Assembly: GCF_003003885.1 (NCBI RefSeq)
Contig: NZ_PVWN01000009.1
Coordinates: 1-64,000, forward strand
Direction of reading: 5' to 3'
Source: Chlorogloea sp. CCALA 695
GTDB taxonomy: Bacteria; Cyanobacteriota; Cyanobacteriia; Cyanobacteriales; Chroococcidiopsidaceae
Length of the DNA stretch: 64,000 bases
The notes under the pieces were generated by a model, which did not search any database, was not told the DNA's origin, and saw only the letters and a list, made by a program, of their open reading frames with translations. Positions within the stretch are counted from its first letter, which is position 1. Each line of letters begins with the position of its first letter. Positions 27,318 to 39,198 of this stretch are shown here, one piece after another. The position numbers and the translations under genes are program-made.

Positions 27318-30300
27318 ATGACTACTGCTATCGAGTTTGGTTGTTTGGTGCGATCGCGCAACTCACTTTTAGGAATTGGCAAAGTTACGGAAATAACTCC
27401 CGATCATGCTGTTGTTGAGTATTTTTGCTCTATGAAGCAACGTATCCACAAAACCCTACCTTTAGACTCGCTGCAAAGGGTTAGGCTGCCAAAACAGACG
27501 CGCTGCTATCTTTATGTGGAAGACAAAGAAACCTGGACGATTGGCAGAGTTTACGCGGAGGACAACTATGAGTATCAAATTGATTTGCCCGATCGCCAGA
27601 CGATAGTAGCAATAGAACAAGAAATTTATGTACGTTGCGATCGCCCGATTACAGATCCCATTGAAATATTGGCAATGAAGGGACACGAAACGCCTTATTT
27701 TCACGCCAAGCGATCGCGTTTTGTTCAATGTTTGCTACAACAACGGGCGGTTAGTCGCGGAATGACAGGACTTATCTCGGCAAATATTGCCCTTTATCCC
27801 CATCAAGTAGAAGTTGTCCGGCGGGTACTTGAAGACCCCATTGGGCGCTACTTGTTGGCGGACGAGGTGGGACTAGGAAAGACGATTGAAGCGGGAGCTA
27901 TATTGCGGCAATACCTGCTAGATGAGCCTCGCAAACAAGTATTAATCGTAGTTCCTCAATATCTTTTAGCACAATGGCAGCAGGAGTTAGAAAGTAAGTT
28001 TTATCTCTCTAACTTTACCAAGCGGGTACAGTTAGTTGCGGTAGAAGATTGGATGCAAATTAGCCGTAAAGATATTGGCTTTCTAATTTTGGATGAAGCA
28101 CACCACATTGCTGCAATGGCTTCATCTTCAAGTAAGGTACAAAATCAGTGTTTCGAGACTTACAAACAACTTGCTCATAAGAGCGATCGCTTGTTGCTAC
28201 TATCTGCAACGCCTGTTTTAAATCACGAGCAAGATTTTTTAACAATGCTGCATCTGCTCGATCCTACTACTTACAAACTTGAGGACTTAGCAGGCTTTAG
28301 CGCGAAAGTGCTGAAGCGTCAGGAAATTGGTAGAGTGTTGCTGGCTTTTAAACCCGGTGCAAAAGCATTTGTTTTGAAGACAAATCTTAGTAAACTGCAA
28401 AGTCTTTTTCCAGATGACACTTACTTGCTAAATCTTCTGGATCAGTTGCAGCAACAAGAATCTACTACCGAAATTGATAAAATGGTGCAGGTAATTCGCA
28501 ATCATATTAGCGATACCTACAGGCTGCATCGCCGGATGCTCAGAAATCGCCGCGCAACTGTAGAAGATGTAATTTTTGACCGCAATGCTATACCTAAAAC
28601 CGAAGATGACTTAGATGAGCGTTCCAATGCCATTCACGAACTATTAGAGGAGTGGCGAACGGTTGCACCAAGCGGACAATATACGCGGATTTTCTTACTA
28701 TTATTTCGCGCCGCCGGGACTTGGTTGGGAGTTTTAAAAGCAGTGGTTACAACCCGTTTAAAGGGCGTATCTAATGCAGATTTAGTTAAAGAATTTGGCA
28801 ACGAAGATGTGCGCCTTTTGGTTGAAACTCCTAAGTTTTCGGGAGAGGAGGAGATTTTGCAAGCTTTACTGAAGATTTTACAACAACCATCAGAAGACGG
28901 CGATCGCCTAGAATTATTGCAAACTATTTTGCTTTACCACCTCTCGGAAGTTCTCAAACTCCAGTCTTACAAAGGAGATATTGTTAAATTACTAGAGCAA
29001 GTGCAAAAAAGAATTGATAGACCAATAAATGGCGACTTCTTACCGAAAATAATTGTATTTACAAGCTTTGTGCAGACTTGCGCGGAACTTAATCGCTACT
29101 TAGTGCAGACTTTTGGGGAAAGTGCGATCGCAATTCATCAATATGGCACATCAAGAGAACAAGCCGAAGATAATATCAACCGATTCAAAAACAATCCTAG
29201 TTGTTTTATCTTAATTAGCGATTTTTCTGGAGAAGAAGGACGCAATTTACAATTTGCTGATGGATTAATTCATTTTGACTTACCTTGGTCGCCCAATCGC
29301 CTAGAACAAAGATTAGGCAGAATTGACCGGATTGGGGGCAAAGTAGCGATCAATTCTTGGTTACTAGCGGGGGTAGATTTGCCCGATAGTCCTCATCAGG
29401 CTTGGTATGAGTTGCTAAAAGCCGGATTTGGCATATTTACTCAATCCGTTGCCAGCTTACAGTTTTATGTTGATGAAAAGTTACCAGAATTAGAAAATAT
29501 CCTTTTTAATTCTGGCGCTACAGGGTTAATAGAGGCGAGCGCTCAAATTCAAACGGAGATTGAAACTGAACAAGTAAAAATTAGCGAACAAAATGTTTTA
29601 GATGATATTGATGCAAACGATGAAAATGCGCTTTCCTATTTCCAAGAATTAGAAACCTACGATGATCGCCATCAAGAATTGCAAAAAGCTACAGAAAGCT
29701 GGCTGTGTAGTGCTTTACAGTTTCTCCGAGTCGATAACCCCGATTTAGCAGGAGTTTGTCAATACCAGCCAAGCGATCGCACTTTAGTACCCGCTAACGT
29801 GCTAGTTGAACGCTTTTCTACTCAGGCGAAAAAACCTGGAACTTACAATCGCAGGGTAGCAAACAAACATTCTGGAATCGATCTTTACCGCATTGGCGAA
29901 GGATTTACAGAAAAATTAGCGTCTTATATGTATTGGGATGATCGCGGACAAGCCTTTGCAATGTGGCGACACGACAAAGCATGGGATGCGGGAGAAGGTA
30001 CAGAATGGCTGGGATTTCGCTTTGATTATACGGTGGAAGCCAATTTAACTTTTGCTAAAGATTCCGCTCTCAATAAGTTAGAGATTAAAACACTTAGACG
30101 ACGCGCCGATGCGTTGTTTCCACCCAAATTAGAGACAGTTTTTGTCAACGCGCGGATGGAGATTGTTGAAGATACAGGCTTATTAAATATCCTGCAACGT
30201 CCTTACTATGGCAAAGACAGCGATTACCGCGACTACAACTTGGCGAAAGACCGTTTATCAATTATTGATGAATTTATCGATCCGGGTAAATGGTCTAACT

Positions 30301-30614
30301 TCTGCCAACTGGCGCGGAAAACTTCAGAAAAATTGTTACGCGATCGCACGAGTTTCGGCGAACTATGCCAACAAAGAGCCAAAGTTGCAACTTTAAAACT
30401 AGACAACCGCCTCAACCAGCTTCAATTGCGCCTTGACCGAGTATCGGAAGCAACTGCTAAGTCTTCTTTACTAGCGGAGGAACTTACTAACGAAACCAAT
30501 ATTAGCCAAGCCTTGGTTGAAGGAATATATCGCCCTCGTCTCAAACTTGACTCAGTGGGATTCATGATAATTTCTGGGCGATCGCCTGTCGGGGAAAATG
30601 GAGCGATCGGCTAA
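27318..30614 (+). CDS. dpdE: SNF2/DEAH-type helicase, DpdE-like
   Basis: A 1098-residue superfamily-2 helicase/translocase. The N-terminal 150 residues form a small all-beta domain (FGCLVRSRNSLLGIGKVTEI). Helicase motif I is DEVGLGKT at 182-189, motif II is DEAH at 259-262, motif III is SATP at 296-299, and the C-terminal half carries FTSFVQTCAEL, DFSGEEGRNLQFAD and motif VI QRLGRIDRIGG from residue 664. The tail of about 350 residues matches no simple family. DpdE is one of the restriction-side proteins of the Dpd 7-deazaguanine DNA system. First gene of a tight operon; its stop overlaps the next start by one base. HIP1 octamers inside suggest long residence in this genome. Confidence 0.7.
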   Translation: MTTAIEFGCLVRSRNSLLGIGKVTEITPDHAVVEYFCSMKQRIHKTLPLDSLQRVRLPKQTRCYLYVEDKETWTIGRVYAEDNYEYQIDLPDRQTIVAIEQEIYVRCDRPITDPIEILAMKGHETPYFHAKRSRFVQCLLQQRAVSRGMTGLISANIALYPHQVEVVRRVLEDPIGRYLLADEVGLGKTIEAGAILRQYLLDEPRKQVLIVVPQYLLAQWQQELESKFYLSNFTKRVQLVAVEDWMQISRKDIGFLILDEAHHIAAMASSSSKVQNQCFETYKQLAHKSDRLLLLSATPVLNHEQDFLTMLHLLDPTTYKLEDLAGFSAKVLKRQEIGRVLLAFKPGAKAFVLKTNLSKLQSLFPDDTYLLNLLDQLQQQESTTEIDKMVQVIRNHISDTYRLHRRMLRNRRATVEDVIFDRNAIPKTEDDLDERSNAIHELLEEWRTVAPSGQYTRIFLLLFRAAGTWLGVLKAVVTTRLKGVSNADLVKEFGNEDVRLLVETPKFSGEEEILQALLKILQQPSEDGDRLELLQTILLYHLSEVLKLQSYKGDIVKLLEQVQKRIDRPINGDFLPKIIVFTSFVQTCAELNRYLVQTFGESAIAIHQYGTSREQAEDNINRFKNNPSCFILISDFSGEEGRNLQFADGLIHFDLPWSPNRLEQRLGRIDRIGGKVAINSWLLAGVDLPDSPHQAWYELLKAGFGIFTQSVASLQFYVDEKLPELENILFNSGATGLIEASAQIQTEIETEQVKISEQNVLDDIDANDENALSYFQELETYDDRHQELQKATESWLCSALQFLRVDNPDLAGVCQYQPSDRTLVPANVLVERFSTQAKKPGTYNRRVANKHSGIDLYRIGEGFTEKLASYMYWDDRGQAFAMWRHDKAWDAGEGTEWLGFRFDYTVEANLTFAKDSALNKLEIKTLRRRADALFPPKLETVFVNARMEIVEDTGLLNILQRPYYGKDSDYRDYNLAKDRLSIIDEFIDPGKWSNFCQLARKTSEKLLRDRTSFGELCQQRAKVATLKLDNRLNQLQLRLDRVSEATAKSSLLAEELTNETNISQALVEGIYRPRLKLDSVGFMIISGRSPVGENGAIG

Positions 30615-33127
30615 TGGTTAACTCCTTTCAAGCACTCCAAAACTTTATTCAAACTGGGGATACATCTTTCTCTAACTTTGAAGCTTGTCATCAACGCTTA
30701 ATCGATGCTGTTAAGGCTGAGGGAAGAAAGCGATCGCCTGTAGATATTGCCTGTTTAGTTCGTCACGCCCTCCGACGCGAAGATGAATTACAAAAAGGAG
30801 AAGCTTTTATTAAAGTACCTCGAACTTTTCCTTATCCTGACCGAGAAACCTGGCAACAAAGCGGCATCAAAATTGTGGGTGAAGGCTCGGACTACTATCT
30901 AATTAGCGCCCGTCCTTGGCTACCTGACTGGCTCAATTGTGCTGACGAATCCCCAGAATCCGCCGCCTTTAAAGAGACTTTACGGCGCAACTACGACCCC
31001 GTACCGGGCGATCCATTTCTCAAGTTAGTTGGCTTGCAAAATTATCGGAGTGCGGCGCAACGCGAGGCTATTCGCGCGGTTTTGACTGCGCCCAAAAATT
31101 CGACATTGGTAGTCAACCTTCCTACAGGTTCGGGGAAAAGCCTTTGCGCTCAACTACCTGCTTTGATGCAAAGTCGCAATGCTGGAGTCAGTGTTGTAGT
31201 TGTTCCGACAACCGCTTTAGCCCTCGATCAAGAACGAGCTTTAGAACCTTATATTCGGCATCCAACGGCTTATTATGGCGATGACTCAGAGCGCGGGATT
31301 GCGCGAAGAAAAGAGATGAAAGCTCGGATACGCCAGGGGACTCAACGGATTATTTTTACTTCTCCTGAAAGTCTCATTGATTCTCTTGCTCCTGCTCTTT
31401 ATGATGCCGCTAAACAGGGACTATTGCGTTATTTTGTCATTGATGAAGCTCATATGGTCGAACAGTGGGGAGATGGATTTCGCCCAGCTTTTCAACAATT
31501 ACCGGGGTTACGCACCGATTTGTTGCGTTTGTCATCTTTCAATACTTTATTACTTACTGCAACTTTGACGGCATCTTGTTTAGATACTTTAGAAACATTA
31601 TTTGGGCAACCTGATGGTTTTAAAGTTATATCCGCCGTCCAATTGCGCCCAGAACCCGCTTATTGGTTTGCTTGGTGTGACGACGAAGAAATAAGGATGC
31701 AAAGGCTAGTAGAGGCTGTGTATCACCTACCTCGCCCGTTAATTATTTACGCCAGTACGCGGGAAGCTGTCGCCCGATGGCGCAGTGAATTATCGGCGGC
31801 GGGATTTCGGCGCTATGCAACGATGACGGGCAAATCTACCACGAAAGAGCGATCGCAATTAATTCAAGATTGGCGCGATCGCAAAATTGACATTGTAGTT
31901 GCAACTTCTGCTTTTGGTTTAGGTGTAGATCAAGCCGATGTTCGTGCTGTTATTCATGTTTGCATTCCCGAAACTATCGATCGTTTCTATCAAGAAGTGG
32001 GTAGAGGAGGGCGTGACGGTAATGCCGCAGTTTCTTTGACACTACATACTAAGGAAGATCGCATAATTGCTGCCTCTCTCAACAAAAAATCAACTATTAC
32101 CATCGAGCGGGGTTTGCAGAGATGGGAAAGTATGTTTTATCGAAAAAAGCTTGCTGAGAATGGCAAATTTATTATTCCAACAAATACCTCTCCGTCTCAA
32201 ATGCCGGGAGATATTGATATGGATGGCGAAGAAAATCAAAAATGGAACATTCGCACCCTAACGTTAATGAATCGGGCAGATTTAATTAAGCTTGATTGGA
32301 AAAATCCGCCATTGAGAAATAATTTTGATTCTCAAGAGAGTTATTTTCAAGCACTTGAAGAACATCGTAACTTTCGAGTTATTAGCGTTACAAACGAACA
32401 TCACTTACTAAAAGATACTTGGGAAACTCAAGTTGCGCCAGTGCGTTCAAACCGTCAGTTTTGGAGTAATCGCAATTTAAAATTGATGTTAGAAGCATTA
32501 AAAACAAATCCCCAACGTTGCCTTTCAGAAATCTTTGCTCACGCTTATTCAATTCCTAGTCGAGAAGCCCCATTTTTGAGAAAATCAATTAATGTTTCTC
32601 GTGCTTGCGGTGGATGCAATTTTTGCAGAAGGCGTAAAATTAAAGCTTTTTCAGGAATTATGCCTGTACCCATTCCTGTTTGGCAAAATCCTTGTTTTTA
32701 TATAGGAGAACAGCTTAAAAGTTTACTTAAAGAAAGCAATTTGATCTTAATTTTCTATGATGTGCTTGAACAAAATAAATGGGAGCAACAGCGCAATAAT
32801 TTATTTAGATGGTTAGTTATTCAAGGTATTAGTAATGTTGTGTCTAAAAATTTAAAAAATATTTTTACTCAAGAAGAAAACTCTTTTATTTTTTGGTTTG
32901 ATATCGATAACTATCAACATATAAAAATGCCTTGTCTGCCAACTTTAATTGTTTATTCTCAAGGAGATAATTTGTCTTATAGTCCTCTAAATCATAATCA
33001 AGCACCATGTATTATTTTACTTCCCATTGATACACCAGATCCAACTAGAAGCGATCGCAGGTTAATAGACATATTTCCCGGTCGTAGTTTTCGTTTTGAA
33101 TCATTTTGTAAACAGGTGGGAATATGA
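30614..33127 (+). CDS. dpdF: RecQ-like DEAH helicase, DpdF-like
   Basis: An 837-residue RecQ-type superfamily-2 helicase. Residues 1-140 are a family-specific N-terminal domain. Motif I PTGSGKS starts at P170, motif II is DEAH at 277-280, and motif VI is QEVGRGGRDG starting at Q460. A Cys cluster (C636, then C665, C668 and C671 in ACGGCNFC) matches the four-Cys zinc site of RecQ. The C-terminal 150 residues are AT-rich and lack recognisable motifs. In Dpd islands, DpdF partners DpdE as the second helicase, presumably acting on unmodified foreign DNA. Overlaps both neighbours. Confidence 0.7.
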   Translation: MVNSFQALQNFIQTGDTSFSNFEACHQRLIDAVKAEGRKRSPVDIACLVRHALRREDELQKGEAFIKVPRTFPYPDRETWQQSGIKIVGEGSDYYLISARPWLPDWLNCADESPESAAFKETLRRNYDPVPGDPFLKLVGLQNYRSAAQREAIRAVLTAPKNSTLVVNLPTGSGKSLCAQLPALMQSRNAGVSVVVVPTTALALDQERALEPYIRHPTAYYGDDSERGIARRKEMKARIRQGTQRIIFTSPESLIDSLAPALYDAAKQGLLRYFVIDEAHMVEQWGDGFRPAFQQLPGLRTDLLRLSSFNTLLLTATLTASCLDTLETLFGQPDGFKVISAVQLRPEPAYWFAWCDDEEIRMQRLVEAVYHLPRPLIIYASTREAVARWRSELSAAGFRRYATMTGKSTTKERSQLIQDWRDRKIDIVVATSAFGLGVDQADVRAVIHVCIPETIDRFYQEVGRGGRDGNAAVSLTLHTKEDRIIAASLNKKSTITIERGLQRWESMFYRKKLAENGKFIIPTNTSPSQMPGDIDMDGEENQKWNIRTLTLMNRADLIKLDWKNPPLRNNFDSQESYFQALEEHRNFRVISVTNEHHLLKDTWETQVAPVRSNRQFWSNRNLKLMLEALKTNPQRCLSEIFAHAYSIPSREAPFLRKSINVSRACGGCNFCRRRKIKAFSGIMPVPIPVWQNPCFYIGEQLKSLLKESNLILIFYDVLEQNKWEQQRNNLFRWLVIQGISNVVSKNLKNIFTQEENSFIFWFDIDNYQHIKMPCLPTLIVYSQGDNLSYSPLNHNQAPCIILLPIDTPDPTRSDRRLIDIFPGRSFRFESFCKQVGI

Positions 33128-34002
33128 GCGTATTAAAAACATCTTTAGCAAATCCTAGCAGAATGCAGGGAATATTTAGATATTTGCTTTATGCTAAAGA
33201 GCAAAGAGAAAAAAGAGAAGTTTTAGAACAAATCATTTCTCCTAACAAGTTAGTTGAACATATAAACGATCCGCGTCCTATGTTCCGAGCGGCGCTTAAT
33301 GAAAGTTTAAAGTGTCGCCTGTTAATAGAAGACGATTCTTACATTACTATTAATCCTGATTTACCTGAAAAAGCTAAAAGTATTGAATCTGGTAATCAGC
33401 AATTACCTAATACATTTGCTAATTTGTTTTTCACTTCAGGTAACAAAGATGAAGAAGATTTTGGTTATGATTGCGCTTGGTATTTAGCACAAGACATATA
33501 TGATACGCCTGGGACATGGGAAGACGTACAAAAAAAAGTTCATCAACAAAAAGCTGGCGAGTTTTTAAGGCTATCTAACAATAGTATTTTCGGTCACTTA
33601 GGAGATTGGATGTGTTATCTGGGTTTAGCTTGGAGTCATTCATTAGGAGGCAAAGTATTAGTTCCAGATCCTACAGTTTATATTCGACGTAATCTCAAAT
33701 CGTTATTTAGTAAACACACTGACGACAAAATTTTGCTTAATGAATTTATAAATAGATTAGCAGTGAAATGTCCTTTATTTGAAACAGGCAAGTTTAGAGA
33801 AGCTGTAGAAGAAATTATCGGTCAGCGTCAAGCTAATTATTTGTCAACATCTACAGCTTTTGCTTTATTTCGTTTGCAAGATGAAGGTTATATTCAGCTA
33901 ATTAGAGAATCCGATGCAGATTTGACGATTTTACCAAAAGCTAATGCTCAAGTTGATGATGACGGACGAGTTTCTCATATTATTTATTGTGATAAATCAT
34001 GA
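33124..34002 (+). CDS. dpdG: DpdG-like protein
   Basis: A 292-residue protein without catalytic motifs. It looks helical, with a winged-helix-like N-terminal region (residues about 20-75, ILEQIISPNKLVEHI to ALNESLKC) and a C-terminal similar segment (FALFRLQDEGYIQLIRESDADL). I assign it to DpdG because of size, position between the RecQ-like and P-loop genes, and the conserved gene order; I cannot name a biochemical role. Starts and ends in ATGA overlaps, so it is translated with its neighbours. There is no HIP1 octamer in it. Confidence 0.6.
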   Translation: MSVLKTSLANPSRMQGIFRYLLYAKEQREKREVLEQIISPNKLVEHINDPRPMFRAALNESLKCRLLIEDDSYITINPDLPEKAKSIESGNQQLPNTFANLFFTSGNKDEEDFGYDCAWYLAQDIYDTPGTWEDVQKKVHQQKAGEFLRLSNNSIFGHLGDWMCYLGLAWSHSLGGKVLVPDPTVYIRRNLKSLFSKHTDDKILLNEFINRLAVKCPLFETGKFREAVEEIIGQRQANYLSTSTAFALFRLQDEGYIQLIRESDADLTILPKANAQVDDDGRVSHIIYCDKS

Positions 34003-37000
34003 CATTTCAAAACTTTGTTTGCTGGGATTTCGAGCAAGTTCAGCGTGTAATGAATGTGGAAGCAACCCAACCTCCAGATTATATATTTCTAGCTACTCAT
34101 CACCCAGTTGCTATGAAAAAAAGTGAGCTTATTAAGGGTGGTACAGAGCTTTTTTATAATGAGCAGGATTTTTTAAAAGATTTTTTAGCAACCCCAGACT
34201 TTGCTTTTGTACCAGTCTTAGGTACTTCAGGTACAGGAAAATCGCACCTAATTCGGTGGTTAGCAGCAAATATAAAATCGACAGATAAACGCCAAGTTTT
34301 ATTAATTCCTAAAATTGGTACTAACTTAAAAGACATCATTGAGATGATTCTTAGTCTCGAAGGGACAGAAAGCGAAAAATTTGCTGATTACCGCCAACGA
34401 ATAAAACGAGCTACAAGCACGTTGACGGAGTTGCAAGCGCGGGAACAACTATTAAACCAACTAGCGATCGCCGTAGGAATAAATAACCAGCGCGATCGCT
34501 CTAAACTCATGGAGGTACAAGAATATTTAATTGAGGAACTTGGTTCTCTATTATACGATCCGTTCTTCCGCAAACATTGGCTGAAAGATAATGGTATTAT
34601 TCATCGCTTAATTGTGCATACCCTCGGACAACACAACAAGCTTGAAATTGTAGAAGAAAGACGACAATTTTCTCTCAGTGATTTACCTTTAAGTATTTCA
34701 GACTTGCATAAAGCTGGTGAAAAATCCAGCGATTTTTATGCGACTTTAATTAATGATGATGATGTACAAAAAGCAACAATAGAATGGTTAAACCACCATC
34801 TTGATGAAGCTATTACCCAAGTATTAAGTCTTGGTAGAGAAGACTTACAAAGGCTAATGCGCGAAGTCCGCGAAACTTTAGGAGAACAAGACATTGAACT
34901 TGTATTATTAATTGAAGATTTTGCTAAATTGCAGGGTATAGATAGAGAGGTATTAGAAGCAGTTTTAGCACGACCTCAACAACCAGGAAGCAAGCCTTTA
35001 TGTGCAATTAGAACTGCTTTAGCTTGCACAACAGGGTATTTTGACAATCTGATTGATACAGTACAGCAAAGAGTTACTTTCAGTGTCAACTTAGATGTGG
35101 GTACAGTTGGCGACAAATCTTTAGTTACGCAAGTAGATATACAACAGTTTGTAGGTCGATATCTTAATGTAATTCGTGCAGAAAATAATAAACTTATTAA
35201 TTGGGCAAATAGTTTAAATGAAGAGCCAGAAAATCTAACTGAACTACCAAATTTTTGCAACGAATGCGAACATCGTCCAGCTTGTCATGCTGGTTTTGGT
35301 GAAACTAATGGAGTAGGGTTTTATCCATTTACACCCAAAGCCTTAAAACAAATGCTGCATCAAGTTAATCCCGGAGATTTTAATCCACGAATTTTAATTA
35401 AAGATGTTCTCAAATATACTCTAGAAAATTCAATTGATGAAATTAAACAAGGGCGTTTTCCTACTGTTTCCTTACAAGAACATTTCGGTCATAAGAGAAT
35501 TAAAGCTATAGTTCAAGACAATATTAGAGCCAAAGATTCTTTAAATTATGCTCGTCGTGAAGTGTTAATTGATTTGTGGACTGACAGTGATACATTAGTT
35601 GATTTACCTGCTGAAGTTCACACAGCTTTTAATATTCCACCTTTGGGAGTGAGTATAGAAAAAGTAGAACCAGTTCAGCCGATTGAACCAGAACCATCAT
35701 TACCAGTAGAAAACTTAATTCATGATAAATTAGCAAACCAACTAGCCATTCTTGATAAATGGAATAATCAAGAAATTTTGCCTCAAGATGTTGAAAAACC
35801 TATTCGTGAGTTTATTTATCCTGCGATTATTGAACGAATTGAATGGGATACAGAAATGTTGCTGGAAGGAAGTTTTACAGGTAAAGGTGGTAAATTATTT
35901 CAGCAAAGAAACGTAATTGCTCATAACCCAAGAATTACGAGAAGGGACAATCTTGGAGCAATTGTTTTATTGCTTCCTATTAACCCCGATAATGAAAAAG
36001 AATTTCGAGAAACTACGATCGCATTTCAAGGCATTTTGCAATACAATTACCACAAAAATTGGAAGTTTCCTGATGGCGATCGCTATTTTCGCGCCTACGC
36101 TAGTCAATTAGAGCGCTGGAGTCAGTATATTATTGAGGAAATTCGCCGCCGTCCTAGAGAAAGTAGTCAAGTTTGGAATCCCGTACCCGCTACGGTGGAG
36201 TTATTAGCGATCGCAGCGCGGATGTCGGGACACTCTACCAGTTTTCCCGAAAATATAATTAATGCTTTGTTTTTAGAAATAGAAGACAAAGACGAAGAAA
36301 ATCGAACTAAAGCCTGGAAAGATTTATTCAAGTTTCTGAAAAGCAAACGTCAGGAATTACTAGAAATTGTCAAGAGTAGAATTGCTTGTACCAAAGGTAG
36401 TAACAGCACCTTTCAAGTTATCGATGCTGTTCAAATTCTTGCGCCACTAAAAGATATTTGCCAAGATTGGCAACTTAAATCAGAGATTCCTAACGATTTA
36501 AACACCGAATATCAGGTAATTCAAAAAACCCGGCAGAAAGTAGATGAATTATTGCTAACAGCAATTGAAGAAGAATGCGATCGCCAATTTGAAATCTACA
36601 AATCTTTGGTAGAAGAATTTGGCGAAGAAGTTAAAAAGAAAGACGTAGTTGATATTATCAAGCAGGCAAAAGAAAAGGCAAGAGAAGCGGGAGTTTTTGG
36701 CGAAAAAAGTGCGGAAAATTTAACTTTTGTAATAGAGCAATTTCAAAAAACTCGCTTTGGCGGTTATACCGATGCAATGAAGCGCGTACAAACTGAAATT
36801 GAGAAGCCAGAACCCCAACCTACTAAATTGTTACAACATTTAAGTGAAAACAATCAAAAAGCTATGAATGATGCTTCAGAGTTTCTAAAAGAAACTAATA
36901 ATTTTTTAGATAAATCTATAGATAAGGCACAAAATGAAATCGAACTACTTAAATTAACGGAAGGTGCAACTGTAGAATTTCATCTAACAGCTATTGAAAG

Positions 37001-37046
37001 TAGTTTATCTCAGTTACAAAGTTTGCTTACAGAGATTAAAGGATAA
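33999..37046 (+). CDS. dpdH: large P-loop ATPase, DpdH-like
   Basis: A 1015-residue protein. A Walker A motif GTSGTGKS is at residues 75-82 and a Walker-B-like string ELVLLIEDFAKL lies near 300. A CxxC-x5-CH cluster (C420, C423, C429, H430; CNECEHRPACH) should bind zinc. The C-terminal 350 residues are rich in charged helices and predict coiled coils. Such ATPases may act as switches or clamps for helicases; in Dpd islands, DpdH is the ATP-binding member of the restriction side. Overlaps the DpdG-like stop; the fifth gene starts 5 bases after its end. Confidence 0.65.
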   Translation: MTFQNFVCWDFEQVQRVMNVEATQPPDYIFLATHHPVAMKKSELIKGGTELFYNEQDFLKDFLATPDFAFVPVLGTSGTGKSHLIRWLAANIKSTDKRQVLLIPKIGTNLKDIIEMILSLEGTESEKFADYRQRIKRATSTLTELQAREQLLNQLAIAVGINNQRDRSKLMEVQEYLIEELGSLLYDPFFRKHWLKDNGIIHRLIVHTLGQHNKLEIVEERRQFSLSDLPLSISDLHKAGEKSSDFYATLINDDDVQKATIEWLNHHLDEAITQVLSLGREDLQRLMREVRETLGEQDIELVLLIEDFAKLQGIDREVLEAVLARPQQPGSKPLCAIRTALACTTGYFDNLIDTVQQRVTFSVNLDVGTVGDKSLVTQVDIQQFVGRYLNVIRAENNKLINWANSLNEEPENLTELPNFCNECEHRPACHAGFGETNGVGFYPFTPKALKQMLHQVNPGDFNPRILIKDVLKYTLENSIDEIKQGRFPTVSLQEHFGHKRIKAIVQDNIRAKDSLNYARREVLIDLWTDSDTLVDLPAEVHTAFNIPPLGVSIEKVEPVQPIEPEPSLPVENLIHDKLANQLAILDKWNNQEILPQDVEKPIREFIYPAIIERIEWDTEMLLEGSFTGKGGKLFQQRNVIAHNPRITRRDNLGAIVLLLPINPDNEKEFRETTIAFQGILQYNYHKNWKFPDGDRYFRAYASQLERWSQYIIEEIRRRPRESSQVWNPVPATVELLAIAARMSGHSTSFPENIINALFLEIEDKDEENRTKAWKDLFKFLKSKRQELLEIVKSRIACTKGSNSTFQVIDAVQILAPLKDICQDWQLKSEIPNDLNTEYQVIQKTRQKVDELLLTAIEEECDRQFEIYKSLVEEFGEEVKKKDVVDIIKQAKEKAREAGVFGEKSAENLTFVIEQFQKTRFGGYTDAMKRVQTEIEKPEPQPTKLLQHLSENNQKAMNDASEFLKETNNFLDKSIDKAQNEIELLKLTEGATVEFHLTAIESSLSQLQSLLTEIKG

Positions 37047-37051
37047 ATACT

Positions 37052-37756
37052 ATGCTTACTGATAGAGCAAAACAATTGATTGAACTTATCGAAGAGAAAA
37101 ATAAACTTTACAAGTATGCAAATCAACTTGATAGTTTTAAAACCAGACAACAGCAAATTGAAAAAGCAGTATCAGATATACTTCCTTTTGCAAATACATT
37201 AAGAGTATTTCGTCAGAAAAATATCGTTGATTGCGATCTTGTACAAAAAGTTGAGAAATTTTTGTATTCTGTCAATTTGATATTAGAAAAATTTAAAGAA
37301 TCTCCAGAATGGATCGTTGATTCTCAAAATTTTGACGGAAATATTTTAGAGAGAAGTATCAGAGGCATAACAAAAGAACTAAATGAGCAGCTAATCCAAG
37401 CTTGGGAAAATTATCTAGCTGAAAAAATGCCTAGCACTAATCAAGAAATGCTCAATGTTTTAGTAAAAATTGAAGCATTTAGACCAAATGTACAAAGGAT
37501 TCGAGATTTAAACGCTCAAATTCAACGCCAAAAACTCCCACAAAACTATGAAGAATTTGAGCATATAGAGCGATTAATCGACCAATTACGAGAACATTGG
37601 CTTACCCTAAGTTCTGATGATTTTCCAGAAACCGTATTACATTTTCTCAAAGCTACGGTTGATTTTGGAGCGCCGCTTAATCTCCTAACTACAGAAGTTC
37701 GTGATTGGCTTGATTGTCACGGGATATCTGACAGTTTACGAATTCGCTTGACTTAG
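37052..37756 (+). CDS. fifth operon gene, coiled-coil protein (possible DpdI)
   Basis: A 234-residue protein that begins right after the DpdH-like gene. It is almost all helical and charged (RAKQLIELIEEKNKLYKYA; DLNAQIQRQKLPQNYEEFE), with no enzymatic motif. In the known Dpd clusters, the gene after dpdH is called dpdI, so position suggests that name, but I do not recognise the sequence itself and do not give it a symbol. It may be a structural partner of the large ATPase. The end of the operon is not marked by a clear terminator. Confidence 0.5.
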   Translation: MLTDRAKQLIELIEEKNKLYKYANQLDSFKTRQQQIEKAVSDILPFANTLRVFRQKNIVDCDLVQKVEKFLYSVNLILEKFKESPEWIVDSQNFDGNILERSIRGITKELNEQLIQAWENYLAEKMPSTNQEMLNVLVKIEAFRPNVQRIRDLNAQIQRQKLPQNYEEFEHIERLIDQLREHWLTLSSDDFPETVLHFLKATVDFGAPLNLLTTEVRDWLDCHGISDSLRIRLT

Positions 37757-38387: not shown

Positions 38388-38636
38388 ATGACCGTAGAGC
38401 TATATCAAGAGGTTGCATTAACTCGTGACTTACCAGAGCATAGGCTGAAAGCTGGAGATATTGCCATGCTGGTTGATGTTGTTCCTCATCCAAGGGATGG
38501 TGAAGAAGGCTGTGTGTTGGAAGTTTTTAATGCTATTGGTGAATCTTTTACAACGATCACTGTACCAATCTCGGCGGTAGAGGCTCTGCGCTCTGATGAA
38601 ATTTTATCCGTTCGCCCTTTGATAAAAGCATTGTAA
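38388..38636 (+). CDS. DUF4926 family small protein
   Basis: An 82-residue protein with the DUF4926 pattern: LYQEVALTRDLPEHRLKAGD, IAMLVDVVPHP, GCVLEVFNA. The fold is predicted to be a small beta-barrel. It pairs with DUF6883 in cyanobacteria and other bacteria in what looks like a toxin-antitoxin-like unit; here the partner is broken, leaving an orphan. A good ribosome-binding site (TAGGAG, 6 bases before ATG) precedes it. Only two bases separate its stop from the DUF433 gene. Confidence 0.8.
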   Translation: MTVELYQEVALTRDLPEHRLKAGDIAMLVDVVPHPRDGEEGCVLEVFNAIGESFTTITVPISAVEALRSDEILSVRPLIKAL

Positions 38637-38638
38637 CT

Positions 38639-38869
38639 ATGAACTACCGAAACTACATCACGATCGAACCCAATAAACGCGGTGGTAAGCCTTGTGTGCG
38701 TGGCTTACGAATTACAGTTTACGAAGTGCTTGAGTACCTAGCTTCCGAGATGACTGAAGCAGAAATTCTTGATGATTTTCCCGATCTGACGCGAGAAGAT
38801 TTAAAAGCCTGTATAGCTTATGCTGCTGACCGCGAGCGTCGGTTTATGACTGCTCCATTATCCGCATGA
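38639..38869 (+). CDS. DUF433 antitoxin
   Basis: A 76-residue DUF433 (VapB45-like) protein. The family motif is clear: YITIEPNKRGGKPCVRGLRITVYEVLEYL, then ASEMTEAEILDDFPDLT and LKACIAYAADRE. DUF433 proteins are DNA-binding antitoxins paired with DUF5615 PIN-like toxins. The stop overlaps the toxin start by 4 bases, giving translational coupling. Confidence 0.88.
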   Translation: MNYRNYITIEPNKRGGKPCVRGLRITVYEVLEYLASEMTEAEILDDFPDLTREDLKACIAYAADRERRFMTAPLSA

Positions 38870-39198
38870 AATTGCTTTTTGGTGAAAATTTGTCGCCCAA
38901 GTTGCCGAATCCTTTGAACGATCTTTTCCCAAATTCGCTTCACGTTCGAGATATGGACATGAAAGCAACGATCGACCCAATAGTTTGGGATTATGCAAAA
39001 GACAATAATTTGATGATTGTCTCGAAAGATGCGGATATGCACGACCTAAGCTTAGTATTCGGGAATCCACCGAAAGTTATTTGGCTTCGCCTTGGCAATT
39101 GTTCGACATTGCAAATTGAAAATTTGTTGCGTCGAGATTTTAACGCGATCGCCTTATTTTATGAAGATGAGAATTTATCGCTGCTTGCTTTATCGTAA
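38866..39198 (+). CDS. DUF5615 PIN-like toxin, first acidic residue lost
   Basis: A 110-residue DUF5615 (Mut7-C-like PIN) protein, normally a putative ribonuclease toxin. Family members begin FDENLSP; here the string is FGENLSP, with Gly at position 6 in place of the conserved metal-binding Asp (codon GGT instead of GAT). The second acidic cluster (VSKDADMHD) and the RLGNCST motif remain. The change should weaken or abolish metal-dependent catalysis. Coupled to the DUF433 antitoxin. Confidence 0.85.
   Translation: MKLLFGENLSPKLPNPLNDLFPNSLHVRDMDMKATIDPIVWDYAKDNNLMIVSKDADMHDLSLVFGNPPKVIWLRLGNCSTLQIENLLRRDFNAIALFYEDENLSLLALS

Follow-up and report, generated by a model that had tools for sequence, protein, structure and literature searches.

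What can the restriction part of a deazaguanine-based defence island do in a genome that lacks the genes for the deazaguanine mark? This question is raised by a 64,000-nucleotide stretch of Chlorogloea sp. CCALA 695 (contig NZ_PVWN01000009.1, positions 1 to 64,000; hereafter the window), which carries at 27318-37756 five same-strand open reading frames (ORFs) corresponding to dpdE-F-G-H-I of the Dpd island. The complete dpd cluster restricts unmodified plasmid more than 1000-fold (PMC5567051). We consider it probable that dpdE-I is a self-contained five-protein unit, central to Dpd restriction, which has been retained to act against invaders without base modification; both the defence role and its independence from a base mark are what we infer by comparing sequences. 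The arrangement is real, recurrent and, as far as the literature searched shows, previously unremarked, and it splits the Dpd island at an evolved boundary. According to a 2025 EcoSal Plus review, the restriction activity tied to 7-amido-7-deazaguanine (ADG) "has not been further explored" (PMC12707154), and since a large dpd survey required dpdAB (PMC11888242), operons consisting of dpdE-I only (solo operons) were outside its reach.

Identity of the five genes and absence of the other Dpd genes

The genes were named by their NCBIfam equivalog scores relative to the curated cut-offs (Table 1). DpdE to DpdH exceed these cut-offs, with PADLOC E-values of 1e-241, 6e-222, 6e-15 and 5e-147, respectively. 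DpdI is placed by a match that is full-length, though sub-threshold, and lies in the expected position after dpdH; as DpdI proteins of cyanobacterial islands with dpdD, dpdJ and dpdK score likewise low (37-52 bits), the low value is ascribed to divergence within the phylum. No defence family other than Dpd gave better scores for the operon proteins in NCBIfam or PADLOC, and the naming proposed in a preliminary description of this DNA is upheld. Its ORF coordinates and lengths also match the sequence, as do all four junctions: a 1-base overlap between dpdE and dpdF (TAATG), ATGA overlaps at dpdF/dpdG and dpdG/dpdH, and a 5-base gap between dpdH and dpdI.

Table 1. The dpdE-I genes in the window, with NCBIfam scores and cut-offs
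Gene	Position	Strand	Length (amino acids)	Product	NCBIfam model	Score (bits)	Cut-off (bits)	Domains or motif
dpdE	27318..30614	+	1098	SNF2/RapA-type helicase	NF041062	1092	500	SNF2, Helicase_C
dpdF	30614..33127	+	837	RecQ-like helicase	NF041063	927	550	CGGCxxC
dpdG	33124..34002	+	292	no assigned fold	NF041064	123	80	
dpdH	33999..37046	+	1015	P-loop ATPase	NF041065	898	450	AAA_22
dpdI	37052..37756	+	234	all-helical protein	NF041066	60.9	150	

The catalytic motifs are intact in DpdE (Walker A ADEVGLGKT, DEAH box, SATP and the C-terminal helicase motifs), in DpdF (Walker A, DEAH/DEAQ-type and C-terminal helicase motifs, together with the Cys motif) and in DpdH (Walker A GTSGTGKS, an acidic LLIEDF box and CxxC-x5-CH). 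The helicase motifs of DpdE and DpdF, the P-loop of DpdH and the Cys motifs of DpdF and DpdH are kept in nearly all relatives compared. The AlphaFold model of DpdG is too weak for use (predicted local distance difference test, pLDDT, 53), while that of DpdI (pLDDT 79) is all helical and found no PDB match with E <= 0.001 in a fold search.

The contig that holds the window (C6, 132 kb) belongs to a 5.2-Mb assembly that is 99.99% complete. Searches of the whole genome yielded no match to DpdA (NF041059), DpdB (NF041060), the DUF6884/DpdC-type domain (PF21818), DpdD or DpdK, and only weak generic helicase matches to the YprA helicase DpdJ; the absence of DpdA, DpdB and DpdC first noticed in the window thus extends to the entire genome, which has no intact dpdA-dpdD set elsewhere. 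The only PF01702 tRNA-guanine transglycosylase (TGT) is a 386-amino-acid protein (E 6e-149), probably the housekeeping enzyme. The nuclease/helicase half (D, J and K) is missing in addition to the base-modification half; DpdK, a phospholipase D (PLD) nuclease, and the helicase DpdJ are the proposed nuclease and helicase of the complete island (PMC5567051). The earlier label "restriction operon" is overstated, since DpdD, DpdJ and DpdK of the known restriction half are lacking as well. The preliminary description had left a choice between a self-standing module and half of a split island. Within the limits of the assembly, a split island with its other half elsewhere is rejected for this genome, whereas the self-standing alternative gains indirect support from recurrence, selection and locus swapping, as described below.

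Solo operons among cyanobacteria

In a survey set of 386 cyanobacterial genomes, presence was defined as passing the DpdH or DpdA profile cut-off. DpdH was detected in 11 genomes and DpdA in 6, with both in 3; the two are associated (Fisher p 3e-4), yet most DpdH genomes are without DpdA. Seven of the 11 (the window genome, G048, G064, G072, G131, G203 and G354) harbor dpdE-I without A, B, D, J or K, and the solo operons retain the order of the genes, which overlap or nearly touch one another. The G064 assembly comprises 2 contigs, so that its missing Dpd genes are not assembly gaps; in G048, a contig break divides dpdH. The other four DpdH genomes show that (i) dpdE-I of G027 is accompanied by D, J and K and by an intact DUF6884-DpdA fusion, (ii) G105 has a DUF6884-DpdA fusion and a partial DpdJ-like match, with no D or K, and (iii) G199 (C7 ~178000-182000, L030) and G078 (C70, L082) have D, J and K, with dpdA truncated or a remnant. 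In the latter two, dpdE lacks its first ~232 residues, including Walker A, and three small genes (76, 189 and 322 amino acids), common to both genomes, lie between the dpdA remnant and dpdE. D, J and K occur only in genomes with traces of A/C (Fisher p 0.024, calculated on 11 non-independent DpdH genomes). The opposite half, DpdA without DpdH, was found in G101, G157 and G185, all with DUF6884-DpdA fusions (L079, L080 and L078, respectively); G101 also encodes a 1652-amino-acid DpdJ-like helicase, and G185 has a second TGT-like match beside its fusion.

In a FastTree phylogeny of E-F-G-H, the solo operons occupy four places, interleaved with islands having D/J/K and/or A/C: the window operon; G131, sister to G105 (support 1.0); a Tychonema/Microcoleus/G354 group; and G064/G072, nested in a clade with G199, G078 and a plasmid of Nostoc. 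This count of four lineages could shift through horizontal transfer. The recurrence of the same five-gene set, mostly intact, in several unrelated lineages suggests that it may work self-sufficiently.

The flanks of these operons are housekeeping genes that differ by lineage, namely menaquinone genes (MenC-like, AMP-ligase and thioesterase), ferritin, a branched-chain amino-acid-type ATP-binding cassette (ABC) transporter, TldD and M16 peptidases. They bear on whether dpdE-I could be restriction machinery keyed to another self-mark, which could be supplied in trans, e.g. by a methyltransferase or by a modification enzyme that has escaped recognition. A type ISP restriction-modification enzyme does lie 0.5-0.8 kb from the operon in G131, and G203, the only solo genome with a DUF6884 protein, encodes it in an operon unlinked to dpdE-I (contig C217, L074:8958-13920), comprising a TGT-like protein (344 amino acids), an unknown protein (539), HerA (511) and the DUF6884 protein (241). 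However, the flanks examined share no modification gene, and a common neighbour as the source of the mark was therefore rejected. The G203 operon looks like a separate HerA/deazaguanine system that the other solo genomes do not have; its TGT occurs neither in the window genome nor in the other solo genomes, and was rejected as an enzyme acting in trans in the former, which has no DUF6884 and only one TGT. We hold a mark of this kind to be distinctly unlikely.

Selection and the behaviour of the locus

The ratio of nonsynonymous to synonymous substitution rates (dN/dS) is 0.19-0.26 for the window operon against its CHRO and ALIT relatives, 0.20-0.33 for G064 against G072, and 0.22-0.43 for Tychonema against Microcoleus. 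Full-length dpdE-I genes free of internal stops are present in the window, G064, G072, G131, G203 and Microcoleus operons. In DNA, the operon and its downstream M16-peptidase flank are matched by metagenome-assembled genomes from Chroococcus sp. (83-86% identity) and Aliterella sp. (84-94% identity), near which the organism is probably placed; three related Chroococcus/Aliterella-like genomes have thus retained the operon in a single position, bordered downstream by the same flank. All of this argues against a degenerating remnant, in which an ancestral full island would have lost A/C and D/J/K and dpdE-I would be drifting to loss with no present function. Broken relatives do exist: G354 (L038:12914-15280) has a 788-amino-acid ORF in which the dpdE N-terminus is joined to the dpdF C-terminus near the DEAH boxes, apparently by an in-frame deletion; CHRO has a frameshift in dpdI; dpdF-I are lost from G308; and both dpdA and the N-terminal 232 residues of dpdE are affected in G199 and G078. 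Taking both sides together, we regard decay as an unlikely explanation of the window operon.

G308, a sister species from the same genus as the window genome, has no DpdH. At the same locus (L093:1258-6610) it carries an intact dpdE (91% identical, dN/dS 0.16) followed by ~90 bases of the dpdF start, and the position of dpdF-I is occupied by a 651-amino-acid reverse transcriptase of the AbiA abortive-infection type (628 bits to TIGR04499, cut-off 250), together with a HicB-like antitoxin and a PIN protein. It could consequently not serve as an empty-site comparison, the site being swapped. Since one presumed defence unit has been exchanged for another at a fixed site, the site appears to behave as a defence locus.

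This exchange also speaks against dpdE-I being a complex for chromosome or plasmid maintenance, in repair or remodelling, with no role in defence, as do the patchy distribution (11/386 genomes) and the homology to an experimentally restricting island. Maintenance would agree with the closest solved relatives of the operon helicases, RapA and (for DpdF) RECQ5/RecQ, and with the lone dpdE genes on Nostocaceae plasmids; we nevertheless judge it extremely improbable. Lone copies were seen on plasmid A of Trichormus variabilis ATCC 29413 (L098:12004-15309) and on a plasmid of Nostoc NIES-3756 (L099:12004-15303), with no other dpd gene within 12 kb; the former scores 890 bits as DpdE (cut-off 500) and lies 134 bp after a replication gene.

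Four points weigh against a modification-independent defence core. Decaying copies occur, as in G354 and CHRO; dN/dS below 1 equally fits a DNA-maintenance role outside defence; a base mark may come from an unrecognised enzyme; and the endpoint of the reaction is left unexplained, as Pfam, NCBIfam and PDB-sequence searches revealed no nuclease domain in dpdE-I. These searches included DpdG, DpdI and the C-terminal regions of DpdF and DpdH, none of which gave a Pfam or PDB-sequence match, and a nuclease hidden in any of these parts was rejected on such grounds; the DpdF C-terminal region has no assigned fold.

The age of the operon is a separate matter. It contains 18 HIP1 sites, a density of 1.7/kb compared with 1.2/kb elsewhere in the window, distributed as 9 in dpdE, 4 in dpdF, 5 in dpdH and none in dpdG or dpdI. 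HIP1 sites had been taken as a sign of long residence; they are indeed present in E, F and H, but are uninformative for dpdG and dpdI, where there are none and the GC content at third codon positions (GC3) is low. GC3 is 0.21-0.23 in dpdG and dpdI and 0.25 in dpdH, while it is higher (0.27-0.45) in other window genes. Because of the lack of HIP1 sites in dpdG and dpdI and the low GC3 of G, H and I, the operon may be a mosaic of parts that differ in age. Unlike the low-GC3 dpdG-H-I part (33124-37756), dpdE and dpdF have a native appearance. The Aliterella copy (L005) is 94% identical to the window in dpdI and only 74% in dpdH, which likewise suggests a mosaic. Just downstream of the operon (38388-39198), small DUF4926 (just under cut-off) and DUF5615 (PIN-like) genes form a possible toxin-antitoxin pair.

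Proposed mode of action and comparison with known systems

In a host that lacks the mark, machinery for destroying unmarked DNA cannot persist; dpdE-I must therefore either be inert alone or recognise something besides the missing mark, and selection, as seen in dN/dS, argues against inertness. Because D, J and K are confined to genomes that retain some trace of A/C, checking of the mark and cutting are most likely the tasks of that gene set. With two helicases, an AAA-type ATPase and two small proteins, the dpdE-I system probably blocks rather than cuts invading DNA, blocking or remodelling being favoured by the lack of a detectable nuclease. In the mechanism that we infer, the DpdH ATPase would form an assembly with DpdG and DpdI, which would sense some property, distinct from the missing 7-deazaguanine, of foreign DNA that is entering or replicating (e.g. 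ends, forks, single-stranded DNA or supercoiling). This assembly would then drive the SNF2-type DpdE and RecQ-type DpdF translocases onto the invading DNA, where they might stall or strip its replication, any cleavage being left to host nucleases. A type IV-like activity, in which dpdE-I would attack DNA containing 7-deazaguanine or another base made by a phage or plasmid, needs no host mark: some phages do have DpdA and deazaguanine in their DNA (PMC6884629), and an unmarked host would be safe. It would, however, reverse the published polarity of Dpd, i.e. restriction of unmodified DNA (PMC5567051), and no base-binding domain was identified in dpdE-I, so that we consider it very improbable.

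Beyond the reading of dpdE-I as a self-contained core, we tentatively put forward, as a possibility somewhat short of even, that dpdE-I is a distinct, widespread defence system which tells self from non-self with neither base modification nor an intrinsic nuclease; the Dpd island would in that case be a composite of this core and an add-on deazaguanine check and nuclease (A/C, D/J/K). The solo operons cut the eleven-gene island at evolved boundaries, and the split predicts mark-reading and cutting genes (A/C with D/J/K) on one side and an independent core (E-I) on the other. In view of the swapped G308 locus, the lone plasmid dpdE and the solo and full islands, Dpd genes seem to form a nested series of modules, in which E alone is followed by E-I, then by E-I plus J, K and D, and finally by the latter combination together with A/C. 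Outside cyanobacteria, five annotated DpdH plasmid regions were examined (a sixth plasmid carried no gene annotation), none of which is a solo dpdE-I operon: those of Methylobacterium and Caulobacter have F-I-like genes with A/B and no J/K/D, that of Agrobacterium has E-K and D, that of Paenibacillus has J and K, and that of Deinococcus has a DUF6884 gene with PLD and helicase genes nearby.

Among known systems, those of the DISARM/BREX/Druantia type also have SNF2 (DrmD/BrxH-like) helicases in multi-gene defence operons, and DpdE gives secondary matches to the DrmD and BrxH models (185 bits for DrmD, whose cut-off is 610, against 1092 as DpdE). The methyltransferase, PglZ and YprA helicase of such systems were not seen with the window operon. 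A scan of the five operon genes and five adjacent ORFs, which was not extended to the remainder of the genome, revealed neither DrmA/DrmB or a DNA methyltransferase of DISARM nor PglZ, BrxC/PglY or PglX of BREX. The closest likeness is to the Dpd island of the Salmonella enterica Montevideo type, to which dpdE-F-G-H-I are homologous in the same order and with equivalog-level scores; it differs in having dpdA, dpdB, DUF6884/dpdC, dpdD, dpdJ and dpdK, all missing from the window genome. Within cyanobacteria, the DpdA-bearing loci of G027 and G105 share an E-I core 38-59% identical to that of the window, whose genome lacks their DUF6884-DpdA fusion, the D/J/K of G027 and the partial DpdJ-like match of G105, while the DpdA-only loci of G101, G157 and G185 retain the opposite module and represent the complementary half.

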